From the NCBI GenBank assembly GCA_947498025.1, contig CANMJR010000022.1, positions 1-46,381 of the forward strand: a stretch of 46,381 nt of DNA. The letters are read 5' to 3'. Below the pieces are notes generated by a model. It did not search any database. It was given only the letters and a program-made list of their open reading frames with translations, and was not told the origin of the DNA. The stretch is from Helicobacteraceae bacterium. Lineage in GTDB: Bacteria > Campylobacterota > Campylobacteria > Campylobacterales > Sulfurimonadaceae. Every line of letters begins with the position of its first letter. Within the stretch, counting starts at the first letter, position 1. Shown here in pieces: positions 22,745 to 45,505 of the stretch. A program made the translations under genes and the position numbers.

Positions 22745-22746
22745 TT

Positions 22747-23516: not shown

Positions 23517-24427
23517 AGATGAATCTGGGTGCAAGTAGAAATTGGGTATCTAAAGGATGGGCTGTTTTAGATCATAAAATTGAAAAAACGGAAGAGTTAC
23601 GAATTAGTGGTGATATCGCGGCAATGGATCTTCCGGATAAATCTTGTGATATAGTTTTTTTAAGTCATGTTTTGGAACATATACCGCATATTAAAATGCA
23701 AAATGTTATGGCAGAAATCAATAGAGTTATAAAAATAGGTGGAAGTATTAGATTATTAGTTCCTGACTTAAAAAAAGTTGCAGAGGCATATGTTAATAAA
23801 GATGAAGATTTTTTTAAGCAAGCAAAACTGGAAGATGAAAGTCAAAGAACTGATTTGGGCTATGGTGGAATGTTTATGAATTTTATAGTTAGCCCAGGAC
23901 AGGACACAGTATTATTTAACAGAAATGTTGATGAATTTATAGCAGGTTATGCACATTTATACTCATATGATTTTGAAATGATGAAAAAGATACTAGAAAA
24001 TTTTGGTTTTGGAAATATAAAACAAGTTGGTTTTTGTGAAAGCAAACATGATGATTTTAAAACTCCCTTACATGTATCTCACTTATCTAGTAAATGGCAA
24101 AATTTAAATAAGGACTTTTATATAAAAAATAATCTTATACATAAGTATTCAAATGGATCGTATGATATCAATTTTACAGTTGAAGGTTTTGATAGAGATC
24201 CATTAACTTCATTAATAATAGAAGCAGAGAAGATAAGTGATTTTGAGTTAAGGGAGGACAATAATTATAATCATAAAAATGCAAAAAATTATAATAACTA
24301 TGCTTTTTCTTTACTTGAAGATAAAATAGTAGGCGAAAAAATTGATTATTTAACAAGAGTTTCAAAAAAGTTAAATAACTTAGATTTTAAATTAAAATTA
24401 GATGAACTTCTAAAAAATAACTTATAA
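23513..24427 (+). CDS. SAM-dependent methyltransferase (Methyltransf_11 type)
   Basis: 304 aa. It opens KMNLGASRNWVSKGWAVLDH, a pattern of small methyltransferases in glycan clusters. 'DLPDKSCDIVFLSHVLEHIPH' and 'VIKIGGSIRLLVPDLKKV' follow. The region after ~215 is Asn/Lys-rich and lacks recognisable motifs (NYNHKNAKNYNNYAF), so the tail may be a substrate domain or degenerate. The ATG is coupled to the end of the NeuA-like gene. The substrate is unknown. Confidence 0.75.
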   Translation: MKMNLGASRNWVSKGWAVLDHKIEKTEELRISGDIAAMDLPDKSCDIVFLSHVLEHIPHIKMQNVMAEINRVIKIGGSIRLLVPDLKKVAEAYVNKDEDFFKQAKLEDESQRTDLGYGGMFMNFIVSPGQDTVLFNRNVDEFIAGYAHLYSYDFEMMKKILENFGFGNIKQVGFCESKHDDFKTPLHVSHLSSKWQNLNKDFYIKNNLIHKYSNGSYDINFTVEGFDRDPLTSLIIEAEKISDFELREDNNYNHKNAKNYNNYAFSLLEDKIVGEKIDYLTRVSKKLNNLDFKLKLDELLKNNL

Positions 24428-24444
24428 AAAAGGTGGTTAATAAT

Positions 24445-25422
24445 ATGGAAAGTGGAAGATTAGTATATTTAAATGGAACATTTGTTCCAGAAAAAGATGC
24501 GAAAATATCAATTTTTGATTCAGCGTTAATGTTTGGTGATATGGTTTTTGAGATGACAAGATCATTTAATAAAAAACAGTTTAAATTAAGAGAGCATCTG
24601 GAAAGGTTATATGCAGGTCTTCATATATTGAGAATACCGATAAATTTAACCATTGAAGAGATGGAAGAAGCATGTTATAAAACTATAGAAGTGAATGAAC
24701 CGTTCTTTAATGAGAATGATGAACATAGACTTATGATTAATGTCAGTCGTGGTCCCCTTGGGATTTATGCACCAATATTTGATAATAAAATGGAACCGAC
24801 AGTTGTAATTGCAGATTTTCCATTAAAGTGGACAGTTGCCAGTATGGGTGTTCTATTTGAAAAAGGAATCAATGCAGTTATCCCATCACAAAGAGCAATT
24901 CCCGGTACTTTACTAGATCCGAAAATAAAAAATAGAAGCAGAGTGCACTATCAAATGGCGAATATTGAAGTTTCAAATTATAAAGGTGAAAATAATTGGG
25001 CTTTATTACTTGACCCCGATGGATATGTTGCAGAAGGTACAGGAGATAATTTTTTTATAGTGAAAAATGGAACTATTATAACTCCTGAAGGAAGAAATAT
25101 TTTAAGAGGAATCAGCAGAGCCTATATTTTTGAAATCGCAAAAGAGCTCAACATTCCCTGTGTAGAAAAAAATATTGAGCCATATGATGTATATACCGCA
25201 GATGAAGCATTTATGACGGGGACACCTTTTAGTTTATTGCCGGTAGTTTCATTAAATAGTGAATTGATTCGTGATGGTAAAAGAGGTAAAGTAACAGATA
25301 TGCTGATTAAAAAGTGGAGTGATAATGTTGGATTAGATATTGAAAAGCAGATTATTGATTATTCAAAAGAGGTGTCTGATTATAAAAGTAATGCACCGAC
25401 ACCCTATCAATTTAAAAAATAA
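24445..25422 (+). CDS. Class IV (branched-chain/D-amino-acid type) aminotransferase
   Basis: 325 aa from ATG 24445, chosen over GTG 24433 because AAGGTGG is well spaced before it. Fold type IV pattern: 'VYLNGTFVPEKDAKISIFDSALMFGDMVFEMTR' and 'KLREHLERL'. The PLP lysine is probably in 'DPKIKNRSRVHYQMA', and 'DGYVAEGTGDNFFIVKNG..ITP' and 'FMTGTPFSLLPV' follow. Such enzymes normally act on amino or keto acids rather than sugars. Its presence in a glycan cluster suggests an amino-acid substituent or an unusual keto-acid precursor. Confidence 0.85.
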   Translation: MESGRLVYLNGTFVPEKDAKISIFDSALMFGDMVFEMTRSFNKKQFKLREHLERLYAGLHILRIPINLTIEEMEEACYKTIEVNEPFFNENDEHRLMINVSRGPLGIYAPIFDNKMEPTVVIADFPLKWTVASMGVLFEKGINAVIPSQRAIPGTLLDPKIKNRSRVHYQMANIEVSNYKGENNWALLLDPDGYVAEGTGDNFFIVKNGTIITPEGRNILRGISRAYIFEIAKELNIPCVEKNIEPYDVYTADEAFMTGTPFSLLPVVSLNSELIRDGKRGKVTDMLIKKWSDNVGLDIEKQIIDYSKEVSDYKSNAPTPYQFKK

Positions 25423-25425
25423 CTT

Positions 25426-26253
25426 ATGAAAAATATAGGAATCATGCAGGGAAGGTTGCTTCCGAGATATAAAAACAGGTATCAGGCGCATCCGGTCGTG
25501 TATTGGCAGGCGGAGTTTAACATCGCTAAAGAGTTGGGTTTTAATCAAATAGAATTTATTTTGGACTACAATGAACATGAACAGAATCCTTTGATGTCAA
25601 AAAAAGGGATAAAAGAGATAAAAAAAATGATGGAGCAGACGGGTGTGTTTGTAAAGTCTGTTTGTGCCGATTATTTTATGGAAGCACCGCTGCACTCTGT
25701 GCATCAAAAAGAGAGCGAAGATGTACTGATAAAACTGGTGAAGAGTGCCGGAAAATTAAATATTGTTGATATAGTTATCCCCTGCGTTGACCACTCTACA
25801 CTCAAAAGTAAAAAAGATGTGGACATGTTTGTCGAGTCGATAAACAAAGCAGTGCCTCTGGCGGAGAAATCTGGAATAAACATCAATTTTGAAACAGACT
25901 TAAATCCTAAAGCTTTTAAAAAACTGCTAAACAGATTTGATTCTAAAAATATTAAAGTGAATTATGACATCGGCAACTCCGCATCCTTAGGTTACTCTCC
26001 TAAAGAGGAGTTCAAAGCATACGGTGCGTATATATCAGATTTACATGTCAAAGACAGAGTCCTGGGCGGCGGTTCCGTAAAATTAGGAACCGGTAATGCT
26101 GATTTCAAAACAGTATTTGAGCAGTTAAAGAAGTACAAATTCAATGGAAGTATTATAATGCAAGCAGCAAAAGCGGATGATTATATTGATGATTTGAGTA
26201 TGGTGAAAGAGCAGAAAGAGTTTATTAGTAAATATATTAAGAAGTATTTATAA
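25426..26253 (+). CDS. Sugar phosphate isomerase/epimerase (TIM barrel, AP_endonuc_2)
   Basis: 275 aa with 'GIMQGRLLPRYKNRYQAHP' at the start, typical of a UlaE/hexulose-6-phosphate epimerase-like subgroup. 'QIEFILDYNEHEQNP', 'NINFETDL', 'VNYDIGNSASLGY', 'ISDLHVKDR' and 'LGTGNADFKTVFEQL' follow; the His, Glu and Asp residues in these strands are the expected metal ligands. It has the same fold as the C-terminal part of the NeuB fusion, so the cluster encodes two such barrels. The reaction is unknown. Confidence 0.8.
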   Translation: MKNIGIMQGRLLPRYKNRYQAHPVVYWQAEFNIAKELGFNQIEFILDYNEHEQNPLMSKKGIKEIKKMMEQTGVFVKSVCADYFMEAPLHSVHQKESEDVLIKLVKSAGKLNIVDIVIPCVDHSTLKSKKDVDMFVESINKAVPLAEKSGININFETDLNPKAFKKLLNRFDSKNIKVNYDIGNSASLGYSPKEEFKAYGAYISDLHVKDRVLGGGSVKLGTGNADFKTVFEQLKKYKFNGSIIMQAAKADDYIDDLSMVKEQKEFISKYIKKYL

Positions 26254-26257
26254 GAGC

Positions 26258-27001
26258 ATGAAAAAAAAAGTAGCATTGGTAACCGGTTCTAGTCGAGGCA
26301 TCGGAAAAGGCATAGCCAAAAAGCTGGTTGAGCATAATTACTTGGTCTATATAAACGGCAGAAATCTGGAGAGTTTAGAAAAAACAGCCAAAGAGTTCAA
26401 CGATGAGGTTAAACTTGTTGTCAGTGACTTGTCAGATGATTTGAATAATAAACAAGCAATAGAAAAAATATTTAAAGATGAAGGCAGGCTGGATTTAGTT
26501 GTTGCAAATATAGGAAGCGGCAAATCAATAGCGGGTTGGAATGTTGACATGTCGGAGTATAAAAGAGTATTTGAGATTAACTTTTTCAGCGCAGTCTCTT
26601 TAGCTACGCATGCAGCCGAGGTTATGAAAGAGAGCGGTGGACACATACTATTTATATCATCCATCGCCGGATGCGAATCTTTAGGTGCTCCTATGGCATA
26701 CAGCAGTGCTAAAACAGCTCTGCTTAGTTATGCCAAGAGTTTATCAAAGGCAACTGCAAGCTTAAATATAAGAGTCAACTCCATATCTCCCGGAAATGTG
26801 ATGTTTGATGGAAGCACTTGGGATGAAAAAAGCAAACATGATAGAGAGGCAGTGAAAACATATATTGAAAAGAATGTTCCTCTCAACGGTTTTGCAACAC
26901 CGGAAGATATTGCAAAAGCAGTACTCTATTTAGAAGAGAGTAGTTTTACAACAGGTACAAATCTTGTTGTAGATGGCGGACAATTAAATAAAATAATTTA
27001 G
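26258..27001 (+). CDS. Short-chain dehydrogenase/reductase
   Basis: 247 aa classical SDR with 'VALVTGSSRGIGKGIA' (Rossmann motif TGxxxGIG), 'LVVANIGSG' in place of the NNAG motif, and 'ILFISSIAG'. The catalytic pair is in 'YSSAKTALLSYAKSL', and 'RVNSISPGNV' and 'TGTNLVVDGGQ' close the protein. It probably reduces or oxidises a sugar or keto intermediate of this cluster. Only 4 bases separate it from the isomerase gene. The substrate cannot be assigned. Confidence 0.85.
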   Translation: MKKKVALVTGSSRGIGKGIAKKLVEHNYLVYINGRNLESLEKTAKEFNDEVKLVVSDLSDDLNNKQAIEKIFKDEGRLDLVVANIGSGKSIAGWNVDMSEYKRVFEINFFSAVSLATHAAEVMKESGGHILFISSIAGCESLGAPMAYSSAKTALLSYAKSLSKATASLNIRVNSISPGNVMFDGSTWDEKSKHDREAVKTYIEKNVPLNGFATPEDIAKAVLYLEESSFTTGTNLVVDGGQLNKII

Positions 27002-27009
27002 GACAATTT

Positions 27010-27840
27010 ATGAGCGTAATGGAAAAATTTAATTTAAAAGACAATCTTGCAATTGTGACCGGCGGAGCAGGATTGCTTGGAAAACAGCATATAGAAGCAC
27101 TGCTTGAAGCGAATGCAGATGTAGTTTTATTTGATATTAACGAAAAAGCTTTGGAAGAAGTCAAAATTTTTTTTATGCAAAAATATGATAAAGATGTAAT
27201 GGCTTTAAAAGTAGATATAACAAAAGAGGACGAGATACTTGAGGCAAAAGAGAAGATATTTAAAAAATTTAATAAATATGCGAATATTTTAATAAATAAT
27301 GCAGCCATAGACCCTAAATTTGAGAAAGAGAGTAAAGTTAATAAATCAAGACTTGAAAATTTTGAATTAAATCAATGGAATTTAGAAATATCTGTCGGGC
27401 TTTCAGGAGCCATGCTGTGTAGTAAGATATTTGGAGTAGAGATGGCAAAAAATGGAAAAGGCGTTATTCTCAATATTGCATCCGATTTAGGAGTTATTGC
27501 TCCTGATCAAAGATTATACAAAAAAGAGGGTTTAATCGACAGCGAGCAAAATGTAAAACCTGTTACATACTCTGTTATCAAACATGGGTTGATAGGACTT
27601 ACTAAATATATAGCGACTTATTGGGCAGATAGAGGGGTAAGATGTAATGCCTTCGCCCCAGGTGGTGTTTTCAATAACCACTCCGATGAATTCTTGGAGA
27701 AGATTACCAATTTGATTCCTATGAAAAGAATGGCAAACATTGACGAATACAAGGCTTCAATACTCTTTTTATGCAGCGATGCCAGTAGTTATATGAACGG
27801 AGCCACTTTAAATATGGACGGTGGCAGAAGTGTCTGGTAA
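27010..27840 (+). CDS. Short-chain dehydrogenase/reductase, second in cluster
   Basis: 276 aa SDR with 'LAIVTGGAGLLGKQHIEAL', 'ILINNAAIDPKF', 'ILNIASDLGVIAPDQ' and the catalytic 'YSVIKHGLIGLTKY'. 'RCNAFAPGGV' and 'MNGATLNMDGGRSVW' end the protein. The TGGAGLLG variant of the cofactor motif occurs in SDRs placed beside neuA/neuB-like genes. AGGA 6 bases upstream supports ATG 27010. It is not closely related to the preceding SDR, so the pair probably catalyses separate steps. Confidence 0.85.
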   Translation: MSVMEKFNLKDNLAIVTGGAGLLGKQHIEALLEANADVVLFDINEKALEEVKIFFMQKYDKDVMALKVDITKEDEILEAKEKIFKKFNKYANILINNAAIDPKFEKESKVNKSRLENFELNQWNLEISVGLSGAMLCSKIFGVEMAKNGKGVILNIASDLGVIAPDQRLYKKEGLIDSEQNVKPVTYSVIKHGLIGLTKYIATYWADRGVRCNAFAPGGVFNNHSDEFLEKITNLIPMKRMANIDEYKASILFLCSDASSYMNGATLNMDGGRSVW

Positions 27841-27846
27841 AAAATC

Positions 27847-29592
27847 GTGGTTTTAGTTACTACGGCATTCGAAGAAACATTTCCTAAGGACAGAAATGAA
27901 GAGATTCTATTTTTAGGAGAGTGGTGTAAGATTTATTCAAGAAAAAATATTTACGAACAGTACAGCTCTACAACTTTGCCTTACCACTGGGATGATAGAA
28001 AAAAACTTTACGAAGAGACAAAATATATCGATACTATTTACGAACAATATTTAGAGGCATTAAAAGAGAGTCTGAATAAAATACATGGCGTTGATTTTTC
28101 AATTTCATATTGGAGAATTATAGTAGGACCATGGCTTAGATATTTTATTGAAATGGTGTATGACAGGTACCTCTCAATTGAGGAAGCTTCTCAAAAAAAT
28201 ATTAAATATACAAATACCGTAAAGATAAAAGATGAAGAGATTGCATCAAATAATATGACGGATTTTATAAAATTATATCCAAGTGATTTATGGAATCAGT
28301 TTATTTATCAGAACATACTCGCCTATTTTCCTATAAAAACGAAACAAATAGAGATTGATTTAAGTAGTTTAGTGCTCAAAAAATTCATGATTTCTTTTAA
28401 AGATAAAATCAAAAACATCTTTTTTTACTTCAATAAGTTTAATACAATTCACTTTTTTGCATCCTATATTCATAGTAAGAATCGGTTGCCTTTGCAATTG
28501 TCTTTGTGGCAAATGCCTACATTAGACACCGGAGTATATATTGACTTTAATTGTACATACTCCACTTTAGTTAGAGATTCACTCTTAGTACCAAAAAATG
28601 AATCTAAATTTGACACTATTTTAACTTCTCTTATAAAAAAGCAAATGCCGAAGTACTATTTAGAGGGGTACAAGCAATTCAGAGATGAAGTTCTAAGAAA
28701 ATATCCCAAGAAAGCAAAACTCATTTTTACTGCAAATGCATACTCGGCAGATGATGCTTTTAAGTTTTGGACTGCTGAAAAAAAAGAAAAAGGAGCAAAA
28801 TATATCATAGGTCAGCATGGCGGTAATTATGGAATGAACTTATTTGCCTCACATGAAATACATCAGATTAAATCTTCTGACAAATTTTTTTCTTGGGGAT
28901 GGAATATTAAAAACAATAATCAAGTATTACCTGTAGCTGCAATGAAGTTAGAGAGACAGATAAGTAACAATCCTAACGGAGATATTTTAATCCCCTTAAT
29001 GTGCATGCCAAGGTATAGCTGTCATATAATGGCAATGCCGATTGCCGGGCAAGTTTTAAATTATTTTGATGACCAAGCATCTTACCTAGAACTATCTTCT
29101 GAAAATGTCAAGGATATATTAAAGTTAAGAGTGTATCAGCAAGATTATGGATGGAGTTTTAAAGAAAGATTTATGGAGAAGGGATTTGGAAATTTGATAG
29201 ACAGCGATACAAATCTCAAAAAATCCTTTTATAGCAGGTTGACTGAATGCAGACTTTGCATAGCAACATATAATGCCACAACCTATCTGGAAACATTCAG
29301 TGCAAATTATCCAACACTGCTTTATTGGAACCCTTTGCATTGGGAGTTAAGAGAGGAAGCAAAGCCATATTTTGATTTACTTGAAAGGGCCGAAATATTA
29401 CACTATACTGCTGAGTCGCTAGTAAAAAAACTAGAAGAAATTTATGAACATCCATTCTTTTGGTGGAGTCAAAAAAATGTACAAGCAGCAAAGGATGAGT
29501 TTTGCTCCCGGTACGCTAGAACATCTGAAAATTGGGCAGATGAATGGGTAAAAGAATTTAATAGAACTTTGGAAAAAGATGCAAGAAGATAG
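27847..29592 (+). CDS. LIC12162-family putative transferase
   Basis: 581 aa from GTG 27847. The N-terminus is LVTTAFEETFPKDRNEEILFLGEWCKIY, followed by 'YHWDDR' and 'SYWRIIVGPWLRYFIEM..DR'. These are the hallmarks of the LIC12162 family, first named from Leptospira O-antigen loci and annotated as a transferase. The C-terminal half has 'YIIGQHGGNYGMNLFASHEIHQIKSSDKFFSWGW' and 'ATYNATTYLETFSANYPTLLYWN', consistent with a GT-B-like site. No signal or membrane segment is seen. It probably transfers the nonulosonate-type sugar, but the reaction is not established. Confidence 0.85.
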   Translation: MVLVTTAFEETFPKDRNEEILFLGEWCKIYSRKNIYEQYSSTTLPYHWDDRKKLYEETKYIDTIYEQYLEALKESLNKIHGVDFSISYWRIIVGPWLRYFIEMVYDRYLSIEEASQKNIKYTNTVKIKDEEIASNNMTDFIKLYPSDLWNQFIYQNILAYFPIKTKQIEIDLSSLVLKKFMISFKDKIKNIFFYFNKFNTIHFFASYIHSKNRLPLQLSLWQMPTLDTGVYIDFNCTYSTLVRDSLLVPKNESKFDTILTSLIKKQMPKYYLEGYKQFRDEVLRKYPKKAKLIFTANAYSADDAFKFWTAEKKEKGAKYIIGQHGGNYGMNLFASHEIHQIKSSDKFFSWGWNIKNNNQVLPVAAMKLERQISNNPNGDILIPLMCMPRYSCHIMAMPIAGQVLNYFDDQASYLELSSENVKDILKLRVYQQDYGWSFKERFMEKGFGNLIDSDTNLKKSFYSRLTECRLCIATYNATTYLETFSANYPTLLYWNPLHWELREEAKPYFDLLERAEILHYTAESLVKKLEEIYEHPFFWWSQKNVQAAKDEFCSRYARTSENWADEWVKEFNRTLEKDARR

Positions 29593-31069: not shown

Positions 31070-31119
31070 AATGCGATTGACAAGTCATGAGATAAATGAT
31101 AAATAAAAAAAGAGGGTTG

Positions 31120-31428
31120 ATGATAAATTATAAAAGAATTCAAAAAGATTGTTTTTGGGATGCATCTATTACTGACTCTGAAATTGATGCCATCCTTGGT
31201 GGTAATGATTTTAGAAAAAAAGCCTTTTTATTTGAAAAAATATTGCTCAATAGCACAAAACTATTCTCCGACTTAAATATATTTAAAAAAGATGAATTAG
31301 TCATGCTGATTCAAAATTTCAAAGTTCCTAGTTTTAATAGTAACTATGTCTTTAGAAGAAAAAATATTGCAGAAGTTTATTTTTTGAATAAGCCATTATT
31401 AATAGATGAGTTAACATGGATAGCATAG
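31120..31428 (+). CDS. Putative antitoxin partner of AbiEii-like protein
   Basis: 102 aa from ATG 31120, where AGAGGG stands just upstream; an earlier ATG at 31096 lacks an SD. The content is mainly helical: 'KDCFWDASITDSEIDAILGGNDFRKKAFLFEKILLN' and 'LFKKDELVMLIQNFKVPSFNSNYVFRRKNIAEVYFLN'. It is too short for a full AbiEi antitoxin and shows no clear winged helix. It overlaps the nucleotidyltransferase gene by 13 bases, so it is most likely that gene's antitoxin or partner. Assignment rests on position. Confidence 0.6.
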   Translation: MINYKRIQKDCFWDASITDSEIDAILGGNDFRKKAFLFEKILLNSTKLFSDLNIFKKDELVMLIQNFKVPSFNSNYVFRRKNIAEVYFLNKPLLIDELTWIA

Positions 31429-32084
31429 ATTATAAAAAACTTTATGAAATTCAAGATAAAGTTTTGGCTGTTGTCTTTAAGGTTGAGAATGAGTTTTATC
31501 TTACGGGCGGCACTTGCTTAAGTAGATTTTATGAAGAAAAAAGATATTCGGATGATTTAGATTTTTTTACAAATACTTCATCAAGATATAGCTTCGCAGT
31601 AAAAAACATAAAACTGGCACTTCAAAAAAAGTTTAAACTTACTGTTGAGGTAGAATCAAAAGATTTTATCAGGTTTAAAATAGACGATTTGTTGCAAATT
31701 GATTTTGTAAATGATATATCTTCAAGATATAAAGATGTGATTGTTCTAGAAAATGGTTTTGTAATAGATAATATTGAAAATATATTAAGCAACAAACTAA
31801 CAGCCGTAATAGGTAGAGACAATGCAAAAGATATTTTTGATATATATCTGATATGTAAGTTTTATTCATTTTCATGGAAAAACATACTAAAATCAGCGCA
31901 TAAAAAATCTGAATTTAGCGATAATGATTTAATAATAAGACTTAAAAGTTTTCCAAACGAGTTGTTGTTTAGCATAAATATAATAGATAAAATGTTTTTA
32001 GATAATTTTGAGAAAGATTTTTTAGACATAATTGAAGAGATAAATAATGATTCAGTTCACAATAGGATAGAAAAGGAAATTTAG
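31416..32084 (+). CDS. AbiEii/AbiGii-type nucleotidyltransferase (putative toxin)
   Basis: 222 aa with the polymerase-beta-like signature 'FYLTGGTCLSRFYEEKRYSDDLDFFT' (GG...DDLDF catalytic acids) at about residues 27-52, 'LLQIDFVND' as the third strand, and 'NKLTAVIGRDNAKDIFDIYLI' at about 127-148. AbiEii-family enzymes are toxins of type IV toxin-antitoxin/abortive-infection systems and act on tRNA or other nucleic acids. The pair sits within a glycan cluster, flanked by the flippase and an aldolase gene, where such modules can stabilise variable loci. Confidence 0.82.
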   Translation: MDSIDYKKLYEIQDKVLAVVFKVENEFYLTGGTCLSRFYEEKRYSDDLDFFTNTSSRYSFAVKNIKLALQKKFKLTVEVESKDFIRFKIDDLLQIDFVNDISSRYKDVIVLENGFVIDNIENILSNKLTAVIGRDNAKDIFDIYLICKFYSFSWKNILKSAHKKSEFSDNDLIIRLKSFPNELLFSINIIDKMFLDNFEKDFLDIIEEINNDSVHNRIEKEI

Positions 32085-32125: not shown

Positions 32126-32890
32126 ATGTCATTAAAAAATAAACTAAAAAACAATCAACTCACAATTGGTTCATGGGTGACTATCGGGCATCCGTCTGTT
32201 GTAGATATCATGGCGAGTGCCGACTTTGAGTGGTTGGTTGTAGATATGGAACATACCTCAATAGATTTAACAATGGCGCATAACCTCATTGCGACTATTC
32301 AGGCAAACGGCATGAAAGCATTGGTCAGAGTGAGCAAAAATGAAGAGGTAATTATAAAACGTATTTTGGACATGGGCGCTGACGGCATAGTCGTACCCAT
32401 GATTAAGTCAAAGGCGGATGCACTTGAAGCTATAGATTATGCAAAATATCCTCCTCTGGGAAAAAGAGGGGTTGGACTCTTCCGTGCTCAAAAATATGGT
32501 TTAGGATTTGATGGATATAAAAAATGGGTTAATGAAGAACTTGTAATTATCGCCCAAATAGAGCACATAGAAGCCGTTGAAAATATAGAAGAGATTATCA
32601 CTACGGACGGGATAGACGGGGTAATCATAGGACCATATGATTTGTCCGGAAGTATGGGTTTTCCCGGCGAGTACAATAGAGACGATGTTAAAGAAGCGAT
32701 TGCAAAAGTACTGAAAATTTGCAAAGAAAATAATGTACCTTCGGGTTTTCATGTCATAGAATCAGACCCGTCAAAACTTCAACAAAGAATAGATGAAGGG
32801 TGTACATTTTTAGCCTATAGTCTGGATTTCTTCTTTTTGGGAGACTGTGCAAGAGAAGGTATGAAAACTATAAGAGAGGGACTTAACTAA
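32126..32890 (+). CDS. HpcH/HpaI-family aldolase
   Basis: 254 aa. The pattern is clear: 'IGSWVTIGHPSVVDIMASADFEWLVVDMEHTSID', 'ALVRVSKNEEVIIKRILDMGADGIVVPMI', 'YPPLGKRGVGLFRAQ..G', 'IAQIEHIEAVENIEEI' and 'VIIGPYDLSGSMG'. Glu in QIEH and Asp in GPYDLS are the usual metal ligands. Members join pyruvate to aldehydes or split 2-keto-3-deoxy acids. Next to a KdsB-like gene (TAATG overlap), it may make a 2-keto-3-deoxy sugar acid for CMP activation, which is an inference. Confidence 0.88.
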   Translation: MSLKNKLKNNQLTIGSWVTIGHPSVVDIMASADFEWLVVDMEHTSIDLTMAHNLIATIQANGMKALVRVSKNEEVIIKRILDMGADGIVVPMIKSKADALEAIDYAKYPPLGKRGVGLFRAQKYGLGFDGYKKWVNEELVIIAQIEHIEAVENIEEIITTDGIDGVIIGPYDLSGSMGFPGEYNRDDVKEAIAKVLKICKENNVPSGFHVIESDPSKLQQRIDEGCTFLAYSLDFFFLGDCAREGMKTIREGLN

Positions 32891-33663
32891 TGAATATAAT
32901 ATCGATAATTCCGGCAAGAATGGGTTCAAGTAGATTTCCGGGTAAGCCTATGGCTGATATACTGGGAATGCCTATGATAGGGCATGTGTATAAAAGAGTG
33001 AAGATGAGTACAACTCTGAGCGAGGTGTATGTTGCTACATGTGATAAAGAGATTTATGCCTACATAGAATCTATCGGCGGTAAAGCTGTTATGACGAGTG
33101 ATTGTCATGAGAGATGCAGTGACAGATGCGCGGAAGCGATGCTTAAAATAGAAAAAGAAAGCGGAGAAAAATGCGACATTATGGTGATGGTTCAAGGGGA
33201 TGAACCGCTTACATTTCCTCAGATGATAGACGAAGCTGTGCAGCCGATGCTAGGTGATAAAACGATTAGAATCACAAATCTTGTAGCAGATTTAGGCACG
33301 CTAAAAGAGTTTGAAAACCCAAATGAAGTTAAAGTTGTCATGGATAAATTTTCTAACGCCATCTACTTCAGTCGAGAGCCAATCCCAAGCAGAAAAAAAG
33401 GTGTTCTTGATGTTCCCATGAAAAAACAGGTCTGCGTGATACCTTTCACAAGAGACTTTTTGTTAGAGTACAACGAAATGGAACCGACTCCTTTGGAAAT
33501 AATAGAATCCGTTGACATGATGCGCATCATAGAAAACGGAATGAAAGTAAAAATGGTTCCGACGGTTTATATAACAAAAGCAGTGGACACAAAAGAGGAT
33601 TTGGATAGGGTTTGTGAGATGATGAGAGAGGATAAATTGTATAAGGATTATAACAATGTTTAA
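32890..33663 (+). CDS. KdsB-like CMP-sugar-acid cytidylyltransferase
   Basis: 257 aa with 'IIPARMGSSRFPGKPMADILGMPMIGHVYKR' at the N-terminus, 'CHERCSDRCAEAM', 'MVQGDEPLTFPQMI' and 'NEVKVVMD...AIYFSREPIPS'. 'VCVIPFTRDFL' and 'ESVDMMRIIENG..VKMVPT' follow. These are the signatures of 3-deoxy-manno-octulosonate cytidylyltransferase. The cell needs a housekeeping kdsB elsewhere for lipid A-Kdo, so this copy likely serves a special 2-keto sugar from the upstream aldolase. A decayed 3' end of a related gene lies at 34386-34451. Confidence 0.85.
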   Translation: MNIISIIPARMGSSRFPGKPMADILGMPMIGHVYKRVKMSTTLSEVYVATCDKEIYAYIESIGGKAVMTSDCHERCSDRCAEAMLKIEKESGEKCDIMVMVQGDEPLTFPQMIDEAVQPMLGDKTIRITNLVADLGTLKEFENPNEVKVVMDKFSNAIYFSREPIPSRKKGVLDVPMKKQVCVIPFTRDFLLEYNEMEPTPLEIIESVDMMRIIENGMKVKMVPTVYITKAVDTKEDLDRVCEMMREDKLYKDYNNV

Positions 33664-34487: not shown

Positions 34488-35066
34488 TTGATTGGCATAT
34501 TAAAAAAAATCTTATTTGCAATATACCGTGAAATATTTGGAGTGATAGAATTTATAGCTATATATTCTCCTAGAACAAAAATAGGAGGTTTATTGCGTAA
34601 AGTATATTGGAAATCTAGATTAAATATTGGAAAAAATTTTCAAATTGATAGAGGGTCAATGGTCGAAAATGTAAAATTAGTTCAAATTGGAAATAATTTT
34701 TTAGTTGGCATGAATGTTTGGATTAGCGCAGGAGAATGCAAAGGAATATTTATTGGTAATGATGTTTGGATATCAAAAGATTCTTACATTAGAAGCGCGA
34801 ATCATTCCTTCGATAGAACGGACATACCAATGAGAGAACAGGGACATACATGTGGCTCTGTAGAATTCAATAATAGAGAATATTCAATTGTAATTGAAGA
34901 TGGCTGCTGGATTGCTTCAAATTGTACAATATTGAGTGGCTCACATATTGGGGAGGGTGCTATAATATCTACTGGATCTGTGGTTTCAGGTAAGATACCT
35001 CCGTACTCCATCGTCATTGGAAATCCTGCAAGAGTAATTAGTAATAGAAAAAAAATTAAAGTTTAA
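34488..35066 (+). CDS. Left-handed beta-helix (hexapeptide) acyltransferase
   Basis: 192 aa from TTG 34488, with AAGGA 6 bases upstream. A hydrophobic start (IGILKKILFAIYREIFGVIEF) is followed by hexapeptide repeats: 'VKLVQIGNNFLVGMNVWISAG', 'IGNDVWISKDSYIRSANHSF', 'IEDGCWIASNCTILSGSHIG' and 'GAIISTGSVVSGKIPPYSIVIGNPARV'. The 'ANHSF' His is the likely catalytic base. Such enzymes add acetyl or other acyl groups to sugars. Its place before the ACP module makes an acyl-ACP donor possible. Confidence 0.85.
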   Translation: MIGILKKILFAIYREIFGVIEFIAIYSPRTKIGGLLRKVYWKSRLNIGKNFQIDRGSMVENVKLVQIGNNFLVGMNVWISAGECKGIFIGNDVWISKDSYIRSANHSFDRTDIPMREQGHTCGSVEFNNREYSIVIEDGCWIASNCTILSGSHIGEGAIISTGSVVSGKIPPYSIVIGNPARVISNRKKIKV

Positions 35067-35085
35067 AATCAATAATAGAGGAAAT

Positions 35086-36003
35086 ATGAATAATAAAAAT
35101 ATAGATTATGTATTAAATTATCTTTATAATAGGGCACCTTTGCAAAGAAAAAAAATTGAAATGTTTTTTACAAATCAAGATAATATGTTTTTTCATGAAT
35201 TTGAAGATTTTTTAATTCAATATACTAATTATTTAAATAAAAATGATATGACTATAGAATATGGGATAGATGCATATTTAAAAATGGTGAATGATATGTT
35301 CAAATCTCAGATTAAATTTATGAGGTCAGGTTGCTACCCTGTTTTAAAGACATCTGATGCAGTTAAAAATGTTTATAATGATAAACCGGAAATGCTTTCA
35401 TATATGATAGGGTTGGCTCTATCTCAATATTTGTGGAGTACACATTACGAAATGTTTAATCATTTGAAATCTGAACTTATTAAAAATAAAGAAAATATAA
35501 AAACATATATAGAGATTGGACCTGGGCATGGGCTTTTTTTAAAAAATGCTATTGATATATTGGATGATGATGTTGATATGCTGGCAATAGATATATCACA
35601 TGTTTCTTTGGAAGTTTCGGAATCAATCATAAAATATTTTTACCCAACAAAAAAGGTGAAATTTATAAATGAAGATATATTAAATTTAGACTTAAATTCA
35701 GAATGTGATTTTATTGTAATGGGTGAAGTAATTGAACATGTAGAAAACCCAAAATTATTATTGAATAAAATTGCCAATTTATTAAGTAGTAATGGTAAAG
35801 CTTTTTTATCTACTTGTGTTAATTGCCCTGCAATAGACCATGTCTATCATTTTAGAACTGTTGATGAGATTAGAAATTTGTTTGCCGAATGTGGGTTGAA
35901 AATTGAATCAGAGAAAATTCTTCCTGTCGAGAACTTACCAATGAGTGATATAATTGAACAAAATATTACTATTAATTATTCAGCGATTGTGACAAAGGCT
36001 TAA
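35086..36003 (+). CDS. Class I SAM-dependent methyltransferase
   Basis: 305 aa. An N-terminal helical region of about 135 residues precedes the methyltransferase core: 'TYIEIGPGHGLFLKNAIDIL', 'MLAIDISHVSLEVSE', 'CDFIVMGEVIEHVENPKLLLNKI' and 'SSNGKAFLSTCVNCPAIDH'. GAGGAAAT precedes the ATG. The substrate is unknown; an SD-less ACP-bound or sugar substrate is equally possible. It is the first gene of a tight run with the MaoC-SDR fusion (1-base gap). Confidence 0.82.
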   Translation: MNNKNIDYVLNYLYNRAPLQRKKIEMFFTNQDNMFFHEFEDFLIQYTNYLNKNDMTIEYGIDAYLKMVNDMFKSQIKFMRSGCYPVLKTSDAVKNVYNDKPEMLSYMIGLALSQYLWSTHYEMFNHLKSELIKNKENIKTYIEIGPGHGLFLKNAIDILDDDVDMLAIDISHVSLEVSESIIKYFYPTKKVKFINEDILNLDLNSECDFIVMGEVIEHVENPKLLLNKIANLLSSNGKAFLSTCVNCPAIDHVYHFRTVDEIRNLFAECGLKIESEKILPVENLPMSDIIEQNITINYSAIVTKA

Positions 36004-36004
36004 G

Positions 36005-37189
36005 ATGGGTAGGTACTCAAAAATAAATGTTGGTGATAGCGCAAAGATAAAACATATTATAACCAGTAAAGATATTGAAAAATTCGTTGAGCTGAGTGGA
36101 GATGACAATAGGTTACATGTAGATAAAGAATTTGCTAGCAAAACATCTTTTAAAAAGCCAGTTGCTCATGGAATGATTGGAGCTTCTTTTATATCTACCA
36201 TAATAGGTACAAAAATTCCTGGAGATGGAGCGCTATGGTATGCTCAAAGTCTTGAGTTTCTACTTCCTGTAAGAATAGGTGATGAATTAACCATTACCGC
36301 TACGGTTTTAAAAAAAATAGATAGACAAAATAGCATAGAACTTCAAACGGATATTTACAATCAACATAAACAAAAAGTCACAACAGGAATAGCTAAAGTT
36401 AAAATAATAGAAGATGAAATTATTGAAGAAGATATTAGCTTACTTAGTGAAAAAATTGTTTTAGTAATTGGTGCAACGGGAGGAATAGGTTCTGAAACTG
36501 CAAAAATTTTAGCAAAAGAAAATTACAACATGATACTTCACTATAACTCTAACAAATCTAAAGCAGAGCAGCTTAAAACAGAATTACAAAACTTAACAGA
36601 TAAAAAAATCATTTTAGTTCAAGCAAATCTTTTAAATGAACAAGAAATATCTGAAATGTTTTTTGAAATTAACCGATATTTTATTTCAATATCTGCTTTT
36701 GTCAATGCTTCTACTCTACATTTTGGAAATATTAAAATTAGTAATTTGGAATGGAGTGATATATCCTCTCAACTTGACATTAATATTAAAGTAAACTTTA
36801 ATTTAGTAAAAAAGATTATTCCCCTTATGGAGATAAATCATTATGGAAAGATTGTTTTTATTACAACGCAAGCAACGGAACAATTTAATAGTGAATGGTT
36901 ACATTACATTACTGGAAAATCGGCTTTAAATGGTTTTGCCAAAGCTTTGGCGGTTGAACTTGCATCTAAAGGTATAAGAGTTAATTTAGTGTCGCCTGGA
37001 ATGACAGATACAGAGCTTATTTCAGATATACCAGAGAAGGTTAAACTTTTAACTTCTGCTAAAACCCCTTTGAAAAGATTGGCAAAGCCACAAGATATAG
37101 CGAATGCAATAAGTTATTTAATATCAAAAAAATCTGACTTTTTAACAGGTGAAACTATCAGAGTGAATGGTGGACAGGTGATGATATGA
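36005..37189 (+). CDS. MaoC-type hydratase fused to an SDR ketoreductase
   Basis: 394 aa in two parts. Residues ~1-137 are a hot-dog MaoC/(R)-specific enoyl hydratase: 'SKDIEKFVELSGDDNRLHVDKEFA', 'KPVAHGMIGASFIST', 'QSLEFLLPVRIGDEL' and 'TGIAKVKI'. Residues ~148-394 are an SDR of FabG type: 'VLVIGATGGIGSETA', 'NASTLHFGNI' in place of NNAG, 'YITGKSALNGFAKAL', 'RVNLVSPGMTDTEL' and 'LTGETIRVNGGQ'. The two activities interconvert 2-enoyl, 3-hydroxy and 3-oxoacyl thioesters. The ACP and FkbH genes following it indicate an acyl group built for glycan decoration. Confidence 0.85.
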   Translation: MGRYSKINVGDSAKIKHIITSKDIEKFVELSGDDNRLHVDKEFASKTSFKKPVAHGMIGASFISTIIGTKIPGDGALWYAQSLEFLLPVRIGDELTITATVLKKIDRQNSIELQTDIYNQHKQKVTTGIAKVKIIEDEIIEEDISLLSEKIVLVIGATGGIGSETAKILAKENYNMILHYNSNKSKAEQLKTELQNLTDKKIILVQANLLNEQEISEMFFEINRYFISISAFVNASTLHFGNIKISNLEWSDISSQLDINIKVNFNLVKKIIPLMEINHYGKIVFITTQATEQFNSEWLHYITGKSALNGFAKALAVELASKGIRVNLVSPGMTDTELISDIPEKVKLLTSAKTPLKRLAKPQDIANAISYLISKKSDFLTGETIRVNGGQVMI

Positions 37190-38886
37190 TAAATATGAAA
37201 TTTTCTGAAATAATAAAGGCAAATCATGAACTTGTCAATCGTATAAAAGGTACTGAATATAAGATTGGGATATTGTCCAATATTATGGTTCATCAATCTA
37301 AAGATATTTGTGAATATTCATTAAGACAAAAATCAATAAACGCAAATGTTGAGCTAGGTGATTATGATAATATCGTTCAAGACAGTATGAAATTTCAAGA
37401 TGTAAATGCTATCTTAGTATTTTGGGAAATTTATAATTTCATTGATGGATTACAATATAAAATTGAAATTTTAAGTGATGAAGAGTTTGAAGACATTATA
37501 GAAAAGATTAAAATCGAAATAAACATAGTATTCACAAATTTAGAACAAACCTCATTACTTTTGATTAATAAATTTTCATCTTTAATTTTTAATCAATATA
37601 ATTTAGTTGAAAATAGAATGGATAGGTTGGTAAAAATATTAAATGAATATTTAGAAAGTAAAATGAAAACAAATATGAAATTGATTGATATAGATAAAGT
37701 AATATCTAAAATTTCTATTAAAAATTCTATTGATTTAAGGTACTACTATTCATCTAAGACTCTTTATAGTATAGATTTTTATAAAGAGTATTTTGAATAT
37801 ATTAAGCCAATATTTTTATCTGTAAATGGCAAAACTAAGAAAGCTTTGATTTTTGATTGTGACAATACTTTGTGGAAAGGTATTCTGGGTGAAGATGGAT
37901 TTGACAATATACGAATGTTTAAAGAAGTTCAATATTTGGCTTTAGAATTAAGTAAGGGAGGAGTTGTAATAGGGCTTTGCAGTAAAAACAATCCTGAAGA
38001 TGTAGATGCTGTTTTGGAAAAACATCAAGATATGATACTTAGAGATAAAGATATTGTTATCAAAAAAGTAAACTGGAATGATAAGGTTTCAAACCTTAAG
38101 GCAATTGCTAAAGAATTAAATATTGGGCTTGACAGTTTAGTATTTGTAGATGATTCAAATTTTGAAGTAAATCTTATTAATGTAGAACTACCCATGGTGA
38201 AGGTTCTGCAAGTACCTGCAAAAGAGTATGAATATAACCTTATGATACGAAATGCTATGAACTACTTTTATAATCCGACTCAAACCGCAGAAGATCTAGA
38301 AAAAGTTAAGATGTATAAAGAACAAGTTCAAAGAGTTAGTGCTGAGCAACAAATAGGCAATATAGAAGATTATTTAAAGTCTTTAGATTTAGTTATCACT
38401 ACATATATTGATGATATAGAACAGATTGGTAGGATTTCGCAAATGACACAAAAAACTAATCAGTTTAATCTCACCACTAAAAGATATACGGAAAAAGATA
38501 TAGAATGTTTTATACATGATAAGAATAAAACAGTTATAGCTATCGGTGTAAATGATAAATATGGGGATAATGGAATTGTTGGATTAGCTATAATAAACTA
38601 TAATGAAAATATGGCTACACTCGATACCTTACTTATGAGTTGCAGAGTTCTGGGCAGGAATATTGAGTATAAGTTTATGGATATTATTGTTGATTTTGTT
38701 AAAAATATGACAATAATAAATTCGGAATATGTTTTAACTTATAAAAATAAACAAGTTGAAAATTTATATGATAGATATGGATTTGACATACTGCAAAAAG
38801 ATGAAAGTTGTACAAAATATCAGTTAGATATTTTAAAGTATAGGTCTACAAATATTAATTATATAAAGGTTGAAAATGCAAAATAG
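37186..38886 (+). CDS. FkbH-like HAD-IIIC family protein
   Basis: 566 aa. The N-terminal ~210 residues lack clear motifs. The HAD core has 'ALIFDCDNTLWKGILGEDG' (D224, D226), 'VIGLCSKNNPEDV' and 'SLVFVDDSNFEVNLI'. The C-terminal region, 'QMTQKTNQFNLTTKRYTEKDI' followed by 'DKYGDNGIVGLAIINY' and 'LLMSCRVLGRNIEY', is the GNAT-like part typical of FkbH. FkbH enzymes load glyceryl units from 1,3-bisphosphoglycerate onto ACP in polyketide pathways, and some homologues occur in glycan loci. It overlaps both neighbours. Confidence 0.88.
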   Translation: MINMKFSEIIKANHELVNRIKGTEYKIGILSNIMVHQSKDICEYSLRQKSINANVELGDYDNIVQDSMKFQDVNAILVFWEIYNFIDGLQYKIEILSDEEFEDIIEKIKIEINIVFTNLEQTSLLLINKFSSLIFNQYNLVENRMDRLVKILNEYLESKMKTNMKLIDIDKVISKISIKNSIDLRYYYSSKTLYSIDFYKEYFEYIKPIFLSVNGKTKKALIFDCDNTLWKGILGEDGFDNIRMFKEVQYLALELSKGGVVIGLCSKNNPEDVDAVLEKHQDMILRDKDIVIKKVNWNDKVSNLKAIAKELNIGLDSLVFVDDSNFEVNLINVELPMVKVLQVPAKEYEYNLMIRNAMNYFYNPTQTAEDLEKVKMYKEQVQRVSAEQQIGNIEDYLKSLDLVITTYIDDIEQIGRISQMTQKTNQFNLTTKRYTEKDIECFIHDKNKTVIAIGVNDKYGDNGIVGLAIINYNENMATLDTLLMSCRVLGRNIEYKFMDIIVDFVKNMTIINSEYVLTYKNKQVENLYDRYGFDILQKDESCTKYQLDILKYRSTNINYIKVENAK

Positions 38887-39103
38887 AATAAAAAAAGTCA
38901 TAGCAGATGTGCTCATGATTGATGTTGAACTGCTTAATGATGAATCGTCACCTGAGACAATAGAAGATTGGGACTCGTTAAAACAAATGAATATAATAAT
39001 TGCACTGGAAGAAGAATTTGATATATTACTTTCTGATGATGAAGTTATAGAGATGCTAAATATGGAATTAATATATACTATTTTGAAAGATAAAATATCT
39101 TAA
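38876..39103 (+). CDS. Acyl carrier protein
   Basis: 75 aa from ATG 38876 (AAAGG 6 bases upstream), not the TTG at 38870. Helical ACP fold with 'IKKVIADVLMIDVELL' and 'ETIEDWDSLKQMNIIIALEEEFDILLSDDEVIEML'; Ser34 in DSL is the phosphopantetheine site. It overlaps fkbH by 11 bases and so is co-translated with it. A dedicated ACP beside FkbH and a MaoC-SDR fusion strongly suggests ACP-bound synthesis of an acyl group for this glycan. Confidence 0.92.
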   Translation: MQNRIKKVIADVLMIDVELLNDESSPETIEDWDSLKQMNIIIALEEEFDILLSDDEVIEMLNMELIYTILKDKIS

Positions 39104-43396: not shown

Positions 43397-44006
43397 AACT
43401 ATTTTATGGGATTTTGACGGTGTCATCTTAGACAGCATGAAAATAAAAGGGGATGGATTTAAAGAGCTTTTTAAAGAGTATGATGAAAAGCATGTTCAAT
43501 TAATAGAAAAATATCACTATGAAAACGGCGGTGTTTCGAGGTTTGAGAAGATAAAATATTTTTTTAATTCTGTTTTAGGGCAGGAGATTTCTAAAAAAAT
43601 AATTGAGGAACTTGCATTTAAATTCGCGACTATTATCGAACAAAAGCTTTACGATAAAAGCAATCTCATCGAGGAAACAGTAAACTTTATAAAAAAGAAC
43701 TATAAAAAGTATAATTTTCACATAGTTTCAGGTGCAGAACATAATGAGCTCAATGAATTATGTAAATATTTTGAGTTGAGTAAATATTTTAAGTCTATTG
43801 ATGGAAGCCCGACAAAAAAAGATATTTTAGTGAAAAATGTTTTAAAAAAATATGAGTATAAAAAAGAAGAAACTGCCCTGATAGGGGACGCAATGACTGA
43901 CTATAATGCCTCTGCAGCAAATGAAATAAAGTTTTATGGATTTAACAATAGTGACTTAAAAAAGTTTGGAAACTACATAGATAGATTCGAGGATTTGAAA
44001 TTATGA
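43389..44006 (+). CDS. HAD-superfamily phosphatase
   Basis: 205 aa with 'TILWDFDGVILDSMKIKGDGF' (nucleophile D10 and D12 of DFDGV), 'FHIVSGAEHNELNEL' (motif II Ser), Lys in 'DGSPTKKDIL' and 'TALIGDAMTDYNASAAN' (motif III). The helical cap follows motif I. It likely removes phosphate from a sugar-phosphate intermediate. It overlaps the cyclase gene by 8 bases and the next gene by 4. Confidence 0.85.
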   Translation: MIKTILWDFDGVILDSMKIKGDGFKELFKEYDEKHVQLIEKYHYENGGVSRFEKIKYFFNSVLGQEISKKIIEELAFKFATIIEQKLYDKSNLIEETVNFIKKNYKKYNFHIVSGAEHNELNELCKYFELSKYFKSIDGSPTKKDILVKNVLKKYEYKKEETALIGDAMTDYNASAANEIKFYGFNNSDLKKFGNYIDRFEDLKL

Positions 44007-45505
44007 ATCCGAGAGAGCTGCAGAACTCATATCAAAAAAACAGACAAAAATTTCATGACTATATAGATACTATCAAGAAAAATACCCCTTGGGATATCTA
44101 CACCATAATCAATCCGACTTTGATAAAAAACCCCTATGCAAGTGACTTTCCAAAAAATTATTTTATCAACAGTTCTGAGTTTTCAAATAGAATAATAAAT
44201 TTCACAAAAAACAGTTTTAAGTTTTACATCAAAAATTTGTATCTACTCTTTTCTTATTTTATTGCTTTTGTTTTATACAAGATATATTTCAAAAAACAGA
44301 GAAAAAATGAGACTAAAATTATTATAGATACTTTTGGACTTGTAGATAAAATAAACGAAAGTGGCGAGTTTAGTGAAAATTATTTGAGTGGAATATATGA
44401 AATATTTGAACGCTTTAACACCCAATATTCGATACTCTTAAGACCTTATAGAGTGAGTAAAAATCCTTTTAAAATGGTGAAGTTTTTTCGTATCATCAAT
44501 CAAGATAAAAGAGATTTTATGTTTGAGTATGAGTTTTTAAAATGGAATGATTTTGCTTTGTTGTTCCTTCTTATAGCACTTTATCCCTTTAAAACTTTGA
44601 GACTTTTACAAGATGAAAAAACTTTAGAAGATAAAATCTTCAATAGCTCGCTTTTTGAAGATATAAAACATTTTAGTTTCGACAGTTTGACGCGGTATAT
44701 TCTGGGTAAAAATTTAGCAAAGATTCAGTCAATAGAAAAAATTTACTCATGGAGCGAATTTCAAGTTATTGAGAGGAGCTTTAATTTTGCAGTAAGAAAA
44801 AACAGGAGTGCTATTAAGCTCATAGCCTGCCAATTTTATTTAAACTACGAAACATATTTTAATACTTATGTGGATGACTTAGATTATGAGATGCTCAGCG
44901 CTCCTCATGAAGTTTTGGTAAATGGAAAGCGCTATCTTCTTGATAGAGAAAAAGTTGAATATAATACCGGAGTGTCTCTCAGATATAAAAGCATTTTTGA
45001 CTTTAAAGGTATAAAAGAGGAAAGAAATATTTTACTTCTAGGCTCCTATATAGAAAAAGATACGCAACACATGTTAGAAAGCGTAAAAGAGTTTGACAAT
45101 GTGATATTTAAGAATCATCCGGCAGTAGATATAAAAAAGTTCGGAGTTTTACCAAAAAATGTTACAGTCTCAAATGAAAATATTTACAAGCTTTTTGAAC
45201 ATGCAAAGCTTGTTATAGGAACGGCATCCGGCACATCTGTAGAAGCGGTAGCATGTGGAGTTTCCGTAATAATAATTGCTAGCCGTAATAATCTAACAGC
45301 AAACCCTTTGGTGGCGCATGGGCAAGGTAAAATTTGGGATATTACTTTTGAAATAGGTAATATTGCAGAGATTTATAAAAAACTCATGAAATATAGAGAA
45401 GAAAATATTGATGAAATAATAGAAATATCCTCTTGGTATAAGGATAATTTTTTTGTTTCTTTAAGTGATGAAAATATAGTAAAAACTTTTGGATTTAAAA
45501 AATGA
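44003..45505 (+). CDS. Putative GT-B-like glycan transferase, membrane-associated
   Basis: 500 aa, no confident family. Hydrophobic segments at about 75-97 (NLYLLFSYFIAFVLYKIYF) and 186-200 (ALLFLLIALYPFK) suggest membrane contact. The C-terminal third has 'NILLLGSYIEKDTQHML', 'VIFKNHPAVDIKKFG' and 'YKLFEHAKLVIGTASGTSVEAVACGVSVIIIAS', which resembles the donor site of capsule or CDP-glycerol-type transferases. It is likely a transferase of this cluster. It overlaps the next gene by 4 bases (ATGA). Confidence 0.6.
   Translation: MNPRELQNSYQKNRQKFHDYIDTIKKNTPWDIYTIINPTLIKNPYASDFPKNYFINSSEFSNRIINFTKNSFKFYIKNLYLLFSYFIAFVLYKIYFKKQRKNETKIIIDTFGLVDKINESGEFSENYLSGIYEIFERFNTQYSILLRPYRVSKNPFKMVKFFRIINQDKRDFMFEYEFLKWNDFALLFLLIALYPFKTLRLLQDEKTLEDKIFNSSLFEDIKHFSFDSLTRYILGKNLAKIQSIEKIYSWSEFQVIERSFNFAVRKNRSAIKLIACQFYLNYETYFNTYVDDLDYEMLSAPHEVLVNGKRYLLDREKVEYNTGVSLRYKSIFDFKGIKEERNILLLGSYIEKDTQHMLESVKEFDNVIFKNHPAVDIKKFGVLPKNVTVSNENIYKLFEHAKLVIGTASGTSVEAVACGVSVIIIASRNNLTANPLVAHGQGKIWDITFEIGNIAEIYKKLMKYREENIDEIIEISSWYKDNFFVSLSDENIVKTFGFKK

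Follow-up and report, generated by a model that had tools for sequence, protein, structure and literature searches.

Gene content of the locus

We analyzed a 46,381-nucleotide stretch of DNA (hereafter the window) from a Helicobacteraceae bacterium, contig 22 (CANMJR010000022.1) of a 2.93-Mb genome, and focused on a group of genes within its polysaccharide locus that encode a fusion of a MaoC domain with a short-chain dehydrogenase/reductase (SDR), an FkbH-type protein and an acyl carrier protein (ACP). A preliminary description of this DNA had reported these three genes as consecutive and overlapping, which was confirmed at the level of open reading frames (ORFs) and domains, all on the + strand. 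It had also placed a beta-helix acyltransferase 1 kb upstream. Such a gene is present and ends 938 nucleotides upstream, but it is not isolated, since a methyltransferase gene fills the gap. The features are as follows.

34488 to 35066, + strand: hexapeptide (left-handed beta-helix) acyltransferase, WcaF/WbbJ-like (Pfam Hexapep, 46.9 bits)
35086 to 36003, + strand: S-adenosylmethionine methyltransferase, termed MT35 (Methyltransf_23, 50.6 bits)
36005 to 37189, + strand: MaoC-SDR fusion of 394 residues, with MaoC at about 1 to 140 and SDR at 147 to 394 (Pfam/NCBIfam)
37186 to 38886, + strand: FkbH-type glyceryltransferase/phosphatase with an N-terminal domain, a HAD core and a GNAT-fold C-terminal domain
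38870 to 39103, + strand: ACP with a TTG start or, alternatively, an ATG at 38876 (PP-binding, 21.4 bits against a cut-off of 20.8)

The methyltransferase gene lies 19 and 1 nucleotides from its neighbors, the MaoC-SDR/FkbH and FkbH/ACP spacings are -4 and -11 nucleotides (-17 for the second if the TTG start is used), and a gene for an NAD-dependent epimerase begins at the base right after the ACP stop codon. The G+C content of positions 34488 to 39103 is 28%, versus 34% for the window. Judged from this arrangement, the five genes form a single predicted operon. The earlier proposal that this glycan locus contains a self-contained acyl-ACP module was borne out, and its three genes were named correctly; the methyltransferase, which several relatives have as a member of the set, had been left out.

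In the fusion, MaoC scored 67.8 bits (residues 18 to 115) and SDR 152 bits (residues 156 to 390). The MaoC residues Asp33 and His38 are conserved in all 21 MaoC domains aligned, as are S/T288, Tyr301 and Lys305 in all 17 aligned SDR domains. Proteins of the FkbH family transfer a glyceryl group from 1,3-bisphosphoglycerate onto an ACP, and the protein in the window belongs to this family with 264.8 bits for TIGR01686, above the curated cut-off of 146.65. Residues D224, D226 and T228 of the HAD motif DxDxT, together with K300, D323 and R487, are present in 87 of 87 aligned FkbH proteins, and the SCR cysteine, C486, in 86 of them; C486 would be the carrier of the glyceryl group. The cysteine of a CSKN motif was rejected as the catalytic one, being kept in only 47 of the 87. 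By sequence FkbH matched 3slr, and Foldseek returned 3slr and GNAT folds for its model, whose modest predicted local distance difference test score (pLDDT) of 64.7 restricts its use to the coarse fold. In the ACP, the WDSL motif and 18 further positions are invariant among four homologues. Read from the sequence, the WDSL serine is Ser36 with the TTG start; it is the Ser34 named in the preliminary description when counted from the ATG.

Recurrence of the module in other genomes

A scan of genome contigs with the fusion returned seven loci, among which were three full-length relatives with 63% (L032), 55% (L033, with a frame break) and 50% (L034) identity. The order MaoC-SDR, FkbH, ACP is the same in all three, and their FkbH proteins are 42 to 55% identical to that of the window. 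Among 395 genomes of the phylum of L034, the Bacteroidota, a full-length fusion was detected in 3 (E < 1e-149), including the genome of L034 itself, and the remaining matches listed were essentially confined to the SDR part. At the two new loci, FkbH is next to the fusion; the ACP is a clear ORF in L070 and was found by profile in L069. A further sample comprised 398 genomes around L037, an alphaproteobacterial metagenome-assembled genome, and was taken as Pseudomonadota. FkbH was present in 58 of them, and three of the 30 loci fetched (L124, L125 and L127) have the order fusion, FkbH, ACP. This order was hence observed in nine genomes in three phylum samples, the present one included. The module is more than a chance association, because its order and composition recur at 42 to 63% identity in other phyla.

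In L032 and L069, a homologue of the methyltransferase immediately precedes MaoC-SDR; in L109 and L110 it is located between the ACP and MaoC, and in L078 and L025 to L030 near FkbH.

The same functions also occur as separate genes. FkbH was found in 44 of 298 genomes of the window's own phylum. Besides the window's, 29 FkbH loci were fetched, and MaoC adjoins FkbH in 11 of these, a ketosynthase III (KSIII) in 10, and neither in 8; KSIII and MaoC did not occur together within about 1.5 kb in any of the 29. An absolute mutual exclusion was rejected, since both are found in L069, L154 and probably genome G059. Ten of the 11 MaoC-adjoining loci form one FkbH clade, and nine of these ten share the arrangement FkbH-ACP-(methyltransferase)-MaoC-SDR-MBOAT, in most cases with a protein next to it that occupies the DltD position; in the tenth (L111), no MBOAT was found in its stretch. 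The sole NCBIfam match of this MBOAT is DltB (TIGR04091, 162 bits), below the cut-off of 375, and the protein in the DltD position had no Pfam match. Judging by its genes, the separate-gene operon resembles a Dlt-type acylation system that would make its own donor. It occurs in small genomes, with L072 (8468 to 14531), L080, L108 to L110 and L112 to L115 as examples. In some operons that otherwise look intact, MaoC or methyltransferase genes are split or contain stop codons (L108, 9971 to 10404; L110, 10927 to 11839; G059:C7:107392-107685), which could reflect decay, phase variation or assembly error.

In the other samples, MaoC adjoins FkbH in 5 of 26 loci from the Bacteroidota-phylum sample, in which 26 of 296 genomes contained FkbH, and in 5 of the 30 loci of the L037 sample (7 when wider regions are counted). 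The six fusion-type sequences form one starred group (support 100) in a tree built from 57 FkbH proteins. The character "MaoC beside FkbH" requires 5 changes on this tree, compared with a mean of 16.1 after shuffling, and none of 500 shuffles gave as low a number. Since five changes are needed, the link arose or was lost several times.

Two genomes illustrate how the pair is coupled to FkbH. G577 and G565 have FkbH proteins that are 84% and ACPs that are 79% identical. G565, which lacks MaoC and SDR, has FkbH-ACP-MBOAT, and the same composition without MaoC was seen in L117 and L119. G577 contains the counterpart ACP2-MBOAT (82%) and, in addition, a second branch ACP-MaoC-SDR-MBOAT with a different MBOAT (45%). 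In G577, two carriers and different transferases thus seem to depend on a single FkbH, with MaoC-SDR marking one branch. From these gene arrangements, MaoC-SDR looks like an optional tailoring of the FkbH product, and a tailoring step on that product predicts the pattern of the two genomes.

A different setting was noted in L155 (1825 to 10943), L156 and L157, where FkbH-ACP adjoins a protein of about 1,700 residues with a kinase-like N terminus and a response-regulator-like protein, with no sugar genes. MaoC-SDR is present in L155 and L157 and the methyltransferase in L156.

Product of the module and competing explanations

The preliminary description had stated that there is no ketosynthase in the window, and a KSIII profile built in this analysis agreed with this; the purpose-built profiles for MBOAT, AAC(3)-like and ANL (AMP-ligase) proteins likewise gave no window match. 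The whole genome contains one KSIII, which adjoins a PlsX-like gene, and one KAS, which adjoins an acpP-like gene, so that by gene context its ketosynthases appear to be housekeeping only. Dedicated chain extension is unlikely for this reason. One AcpS was found in the genome and could be the enzyme that arms the ACP of the module. A genome-wide PP-binding search scored two ACPs; that of the module was under the threshold of this search, though over the Pfam cut-off as a protein. MaoC is rare in the window's phylum, exceeding the Pfam cut-off in 21 of 150 genomes, and the module MaoC is the sole one above it in this genome.

The closest parallel in domain order came from a search of plasmids with FkbH (117 records), which led to a polyketide synthase (PKS) on the Streptomyces anulatus plasmid NZ_CP109126.1. 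Its N terminus consists of MaoC (9 to 99), SDR (288 to 472), FkbH (690 to 1031) and ACP (1137 to 1202), followed by a ketosynthase. This loading module contains the four functions of the window operon in the same order within one polypeptide. Free-standing MaoC + SDR proteins of 482 to 543 residues adjoin FkbH in L118, L158 and L159 and share 25 to 29% identity with the MaoC-SDR part of the PKS over about 480 to 500 residues. The machinery that makes the lactyl starter unit in FR901464 and lankacidin biosynthesis reportedly combines a dehydratase-ketoreductase (DH-KR), FkbH and an ACP, as He and colleagues are said to have described in 2014; as described, its functions are the same as those of the window module. 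According to part of a review, such bifunctional DH-KR proteins convert glyceryl-S-ACP to lactyl-S-ACP, the polyketide starter, in both biosyntheses (PMC4765723). The window module contains all the components of a lactyl-ACP loading module, namely, a hotdog dehydratase, a ketoreductase, FkbH and ACP, but it is neither fused to nor located upstream of a polyketide ketosynthase. It differs from polyketide lactyl loading in being split into three genes inside a sugar locus, with no PKS fusion and no ketosynthase. Because no ketosynthase is present in the window and only housekeeping ones in the genome, we did not classify it as a PKS loading module.

In our view, the module is probably a form of the polyketide lactyl-loading module that is split and has no ketosynthase, and it would supply a C3 acyl-ACP from glycolysis for glycan acylation without chain extension. 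The ACP serine would be armed by AcpS, after which FkbH, following its family chemistry, would take 1,3-bisphosphoglycerate, remove the phosphate and pass the glyceryl group to the ACP. MaoC would then dehydrate 2,3-dihydroxypropionyl-ACP, yielding enol-pyruvyl/pyruvyl-ACP, and SDR would reduce the alpha-ketone to lactyl-ACP; we infer these two steps because of the DH-KR precedent and because the PKS loading module has these four domains in identical order. A weaker proposal is that the methyltransferase encoded upstream may O-methylate the hydroxyl of the ACP-bound acyl group or of a precursor. Last, an acyltransferase, perhaps the upstream hexapeptide protein, would attach the group to a sugar at an amino or hydroxyl function. 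Product, methylation and acceptor are predicted here from sequence. Conversion of the glyceryl unit itself is the simplest explanation because there is no dedicated ketosynthase and because MaoC and SDR are repeatedly found beside FkbH-ACP. Glyceryl-to-lactyl conversion would need one dehydratase and one reductase, which matches what the fusion offers. Also counted in favor of lactyl-ACP were the rarity of MaoC in the window's phylum, the five changes on the FkbH tree, which imply recurrent coupling or repeated loss, the comparison of G577 with G565, the retention of the catalytic residues of MaoC, SDR and FkbH throughout, the known existence of N-lactyl groups on bacterial polysaccharide sugars (parts of PMC9912281), and the sugar aminotransferase near the module in L069.

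The preliminary description had proposed a glyceryl or 3-hydroxyacyl group. Glyceryl is retained as a likely input, whereas a 3-hydroxyacyl product is not, for the two reasons given for conversion of the glyceryl unit. Synthesis of a 3-hydroxyacyl group by chain extension was placed second because of the absence of a dedicated ketosynthase, and we regard this route as unlikely. MaoC-SDR would in this case make (R)-3-hydroxybutyryl or a similar group from crotonyl-CoA, acetoacetyl-CoA or housekeeping fatty-acid intermediates, and the ACP would carry it to an aminosugar, with FkbH as a separate or accessory function. The nearest matches of MaoC are indeed (R)-specific enoyl-CoA hydratases, and those of SDR are 3-oxoacyl-ACP reductases, but resemblance to fatty-acid enzymes is a general property of these superfamilies. 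Parts of PMC9912281 report 3-hydroxybutyryl amides in bacterial glycans, and a KSIII lies in the vicinity of the L069 and L154 modules; against this, FkbH, the most constant partner, is left without a role, and none of the 29 FkbH loci fetched in the window's phylum is of both the KSIII and the MaoC type within about 1.5 kb. Improbable, and ranked behind this route, is a glyceryl or O-methylglyceryl donor made by FkbH, ACP and the methyltransferase, as inferred for the flagellar glycan of Campylobacter jejuni, with MaoC-SDR in a side step such as recognition or editing. In C. jejuni flagellin, pseudaminic acid bears di-O-methylglyceric acid (excerpt of PMC3068675), FkbH next to a methyltransferase has been proposed to yield O-methylglycerate in suomilide/varlaxin (excerpt of PMC10143770), a methyltransferase homologue occurs in both KSIII-type and MaoC-type FkbH loci, and FkbH-ACP-MBOAT without MaoC exists. 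However, MaoC and SDR are unlikely to be idle, since every aligned copy retains its catalytic residues and several FkbH clades include the pair. Very improbable is an oxidation resembling the methoxymalonyl-ACP route, in which SDR would oxidize glyceryl-ACP at C3 and the methyltransferase would methylate C2 to give an extender-like unit. The dehydrogenases of that pathway are of the 3HCDH and acyl-CoA dehydrogenase types; a scan of 40 window ORFs detected neither, and the route was rejected on this basis. It also leaves no place for MaoC, and there is no PKS to use the unit, although FkbH, ACP and the methyltransferase are common to the methoxymalonyl-ACP pathway (according to part of PMC7489565).

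Several observations weigh against lactyl-ACP as the product. The closest solved relatives of MaoC are enoyl-CoA hydratases, with the (R)-specific enzyme 5cpg as the best PDB match (E 1.6e-26), and CoA substrates would fit as well. The MaoC and SDR parts share only 28% and 19% identity with their S. anulatus PKS counterparts, the 394-residue fusion is shorter than the MaoC-SDR part of about 480 residues in that PKS, and the AlphaFold2 model of the fusion, based on three alignment rows, was too poor for use (pLDDT 50.1). With KSIII genes in the vicinity of the L069 and L154 fusions, some versions of the module may perform chain extension or use KSIII as a transferase, and a disrupted MaoC is located near a KSIII-type FkbH locus in G059. 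In L071 (7551 to 8735), MaoC is fused to an AAC(3)-like (aminoglycoside 3-N-acetyltransferase-like) domain and adjoins FkbH and ACP; this locus lacks an SDR, and lactyl is therefore not its product unless another reductase helps. Finally, no acyltransferase is uniquely tied to the module of the window.

The 394-residue protein of L071 had been considered a MaoC-SDR fusion and was rejected as such, as Pfam identified MaoC-AAC(3). The combination AAC(3)-FkbH-ACP was also found in L131, L147, L149 and L151. A GNAT protein is near the module in L069, and a family of about 300 residues, GNAT-like by eye and without Pfam match, is near the module in L034 and L070, with a homologue that adjoins the MaoC-SDR protein of L159. 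By their gene neighborhoods, relatives of the window module thus appear to rely on acyltransferases of the GNAT-like, AAC(3)-like or MBOAT type in place of the hexapeptide protein. The best NCBIfam match of the latter is WcaF (76 bits, below the cut-off of 192), and the usual donor of hexapeptide acyltransferases is acetyl-CoA. The beta-helix protein, earlier put forward as the transferase, is kept as the nearest candidate in the window, but as one candidate among others that is not singled out.

On the acceptor side, genes for DegT-type aminotransferases were read from the sequence in the neighborhoods of L032, L033, L034, L069 and L070, that of L069 being confirmed by family search. According to sections of PMC9912281, the polysaccharides of three bacteria carry N-lactyl groups on Rha4N, Fuc3N and Pse, and glyceric acid occurs on Qui4N. 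The window itself contains further genes of surface-carbohydrate families, namely, a LIC12162-family transferase (27847 to 29592; TIGR04331, 475.5 bits) and a weak TIGR04326/PseG-like protein (44003 to 45505). Positions 32126 to 33663 encode an HpcH/HpaI-type aldolase followed directly by a KdsB-like cytidylyltransferase (317.9 bits versus a subfamily cut-off of 255), a pair that possibly provides an aldolase-made, CMP-activated 3-deoxy-ulosonic acid. The same locus encodes a NeuB-like synthase and a PseF-like enzyme. The latter are part of a row at 20004 to 27840 that comprises a 629-residue NeuB-like protein, whose synthase part ends at about residue 335, a methyltransferase, the PseF-like enzyme, an IlvE-like aminotransferase, a sugar isomerase and two SDRs, and that faintly resembles the Shewanella sfm flagellin-modification operon (as far as covered by an excerpt of PMC3765264). 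An AbiEii-type nucleotidyltransferase, the toxin of a type IV toxin-antitoxin system, is encoded at 31096 to 32084 inside the polysaccharide locus, preceded by an ORF of 110 residues.

Comparison with known systems

A literature search restricted to open-licence sources returned no description of FkbH, MaoC, SDR and ACP as a glycan module, which is weak evidence of absence, nor one of the source of the rare N-lactyl sugars. We give roughly even chances to a broader proposal: an undescribed, horizontally spread pathway in several phyla that would draw on glycolysis at 1,3-bisphosphoglycerate, in which free-standing FkbH, MaoC-SDR and ACP would make lactyl-ACP, or its O-methyl ether, and feed interchangeable acyltransferases (hexapeptide, GNAT-like, AAC(3)-like and DltB-like MBOAT) for surface-glycan lactylation. 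If our explanation of the module is right, it would join polyketide starter-unit chemistry and bacterial surface glycans and offer a route to the N-lactyl sugars, and the gene signature FkbH + ACP + MaoC + SDR with no ketosynthase would predict lactyl-type acylation.

Among known systems, the C. jejuni genes for di-O-methylglyceryl-Pse are similar in that FkbH, ACP and a homologue of the window methyltransferase adjoin in a glycan locus (compare L078), in an order that we take to be acpP2-methyltransferase-FkbH-fabH2-acpP3. They have a KSIII and no MaoC/SDR pair, whereas the window has MaoC-SDR and no KSIII. The wfp genes for the Flavobacterium psychrophilum O-polysaccharide share with the module a dedicated ACP predicted to feed an aminosugar acyltransferase, but they include two ketoacyl-ACP synthases and a reductase for a 3,5-dihydroxyhexanoyl group, and no FkbH is named in the parts of the source available (PMC6519341). 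Similarly, AerB of suomilide/varlaxin biosynthesis (O-methyltransferase-FkbH-peptidyl carrier protein) resembles the module in its FkbH-loaded glycerate next to a methyltransferase, but is part of a non-ribosomal peptide synthetase, and the excerpt of PMC10143770 mentions neither MaoC nor SDR.

The dlt operon (DltA to DltD) differs from the window in that the latter contains no MBOAT. Relatives in the window's phylum do pair FkbH-ACP-MaoC-SDR with a DltB-like MBOAT and often a protein in the DltD position, and our explanation, if right, points to a Dlt-like operon in this phylum. Its donor would be made on the ACP by FkbH, MaoC and SDR, as opposed to the DltA ligase of dlt, and if the proposed pathway is correct, the MBOAT form would be the lactyl counterpart of D-alanylation.

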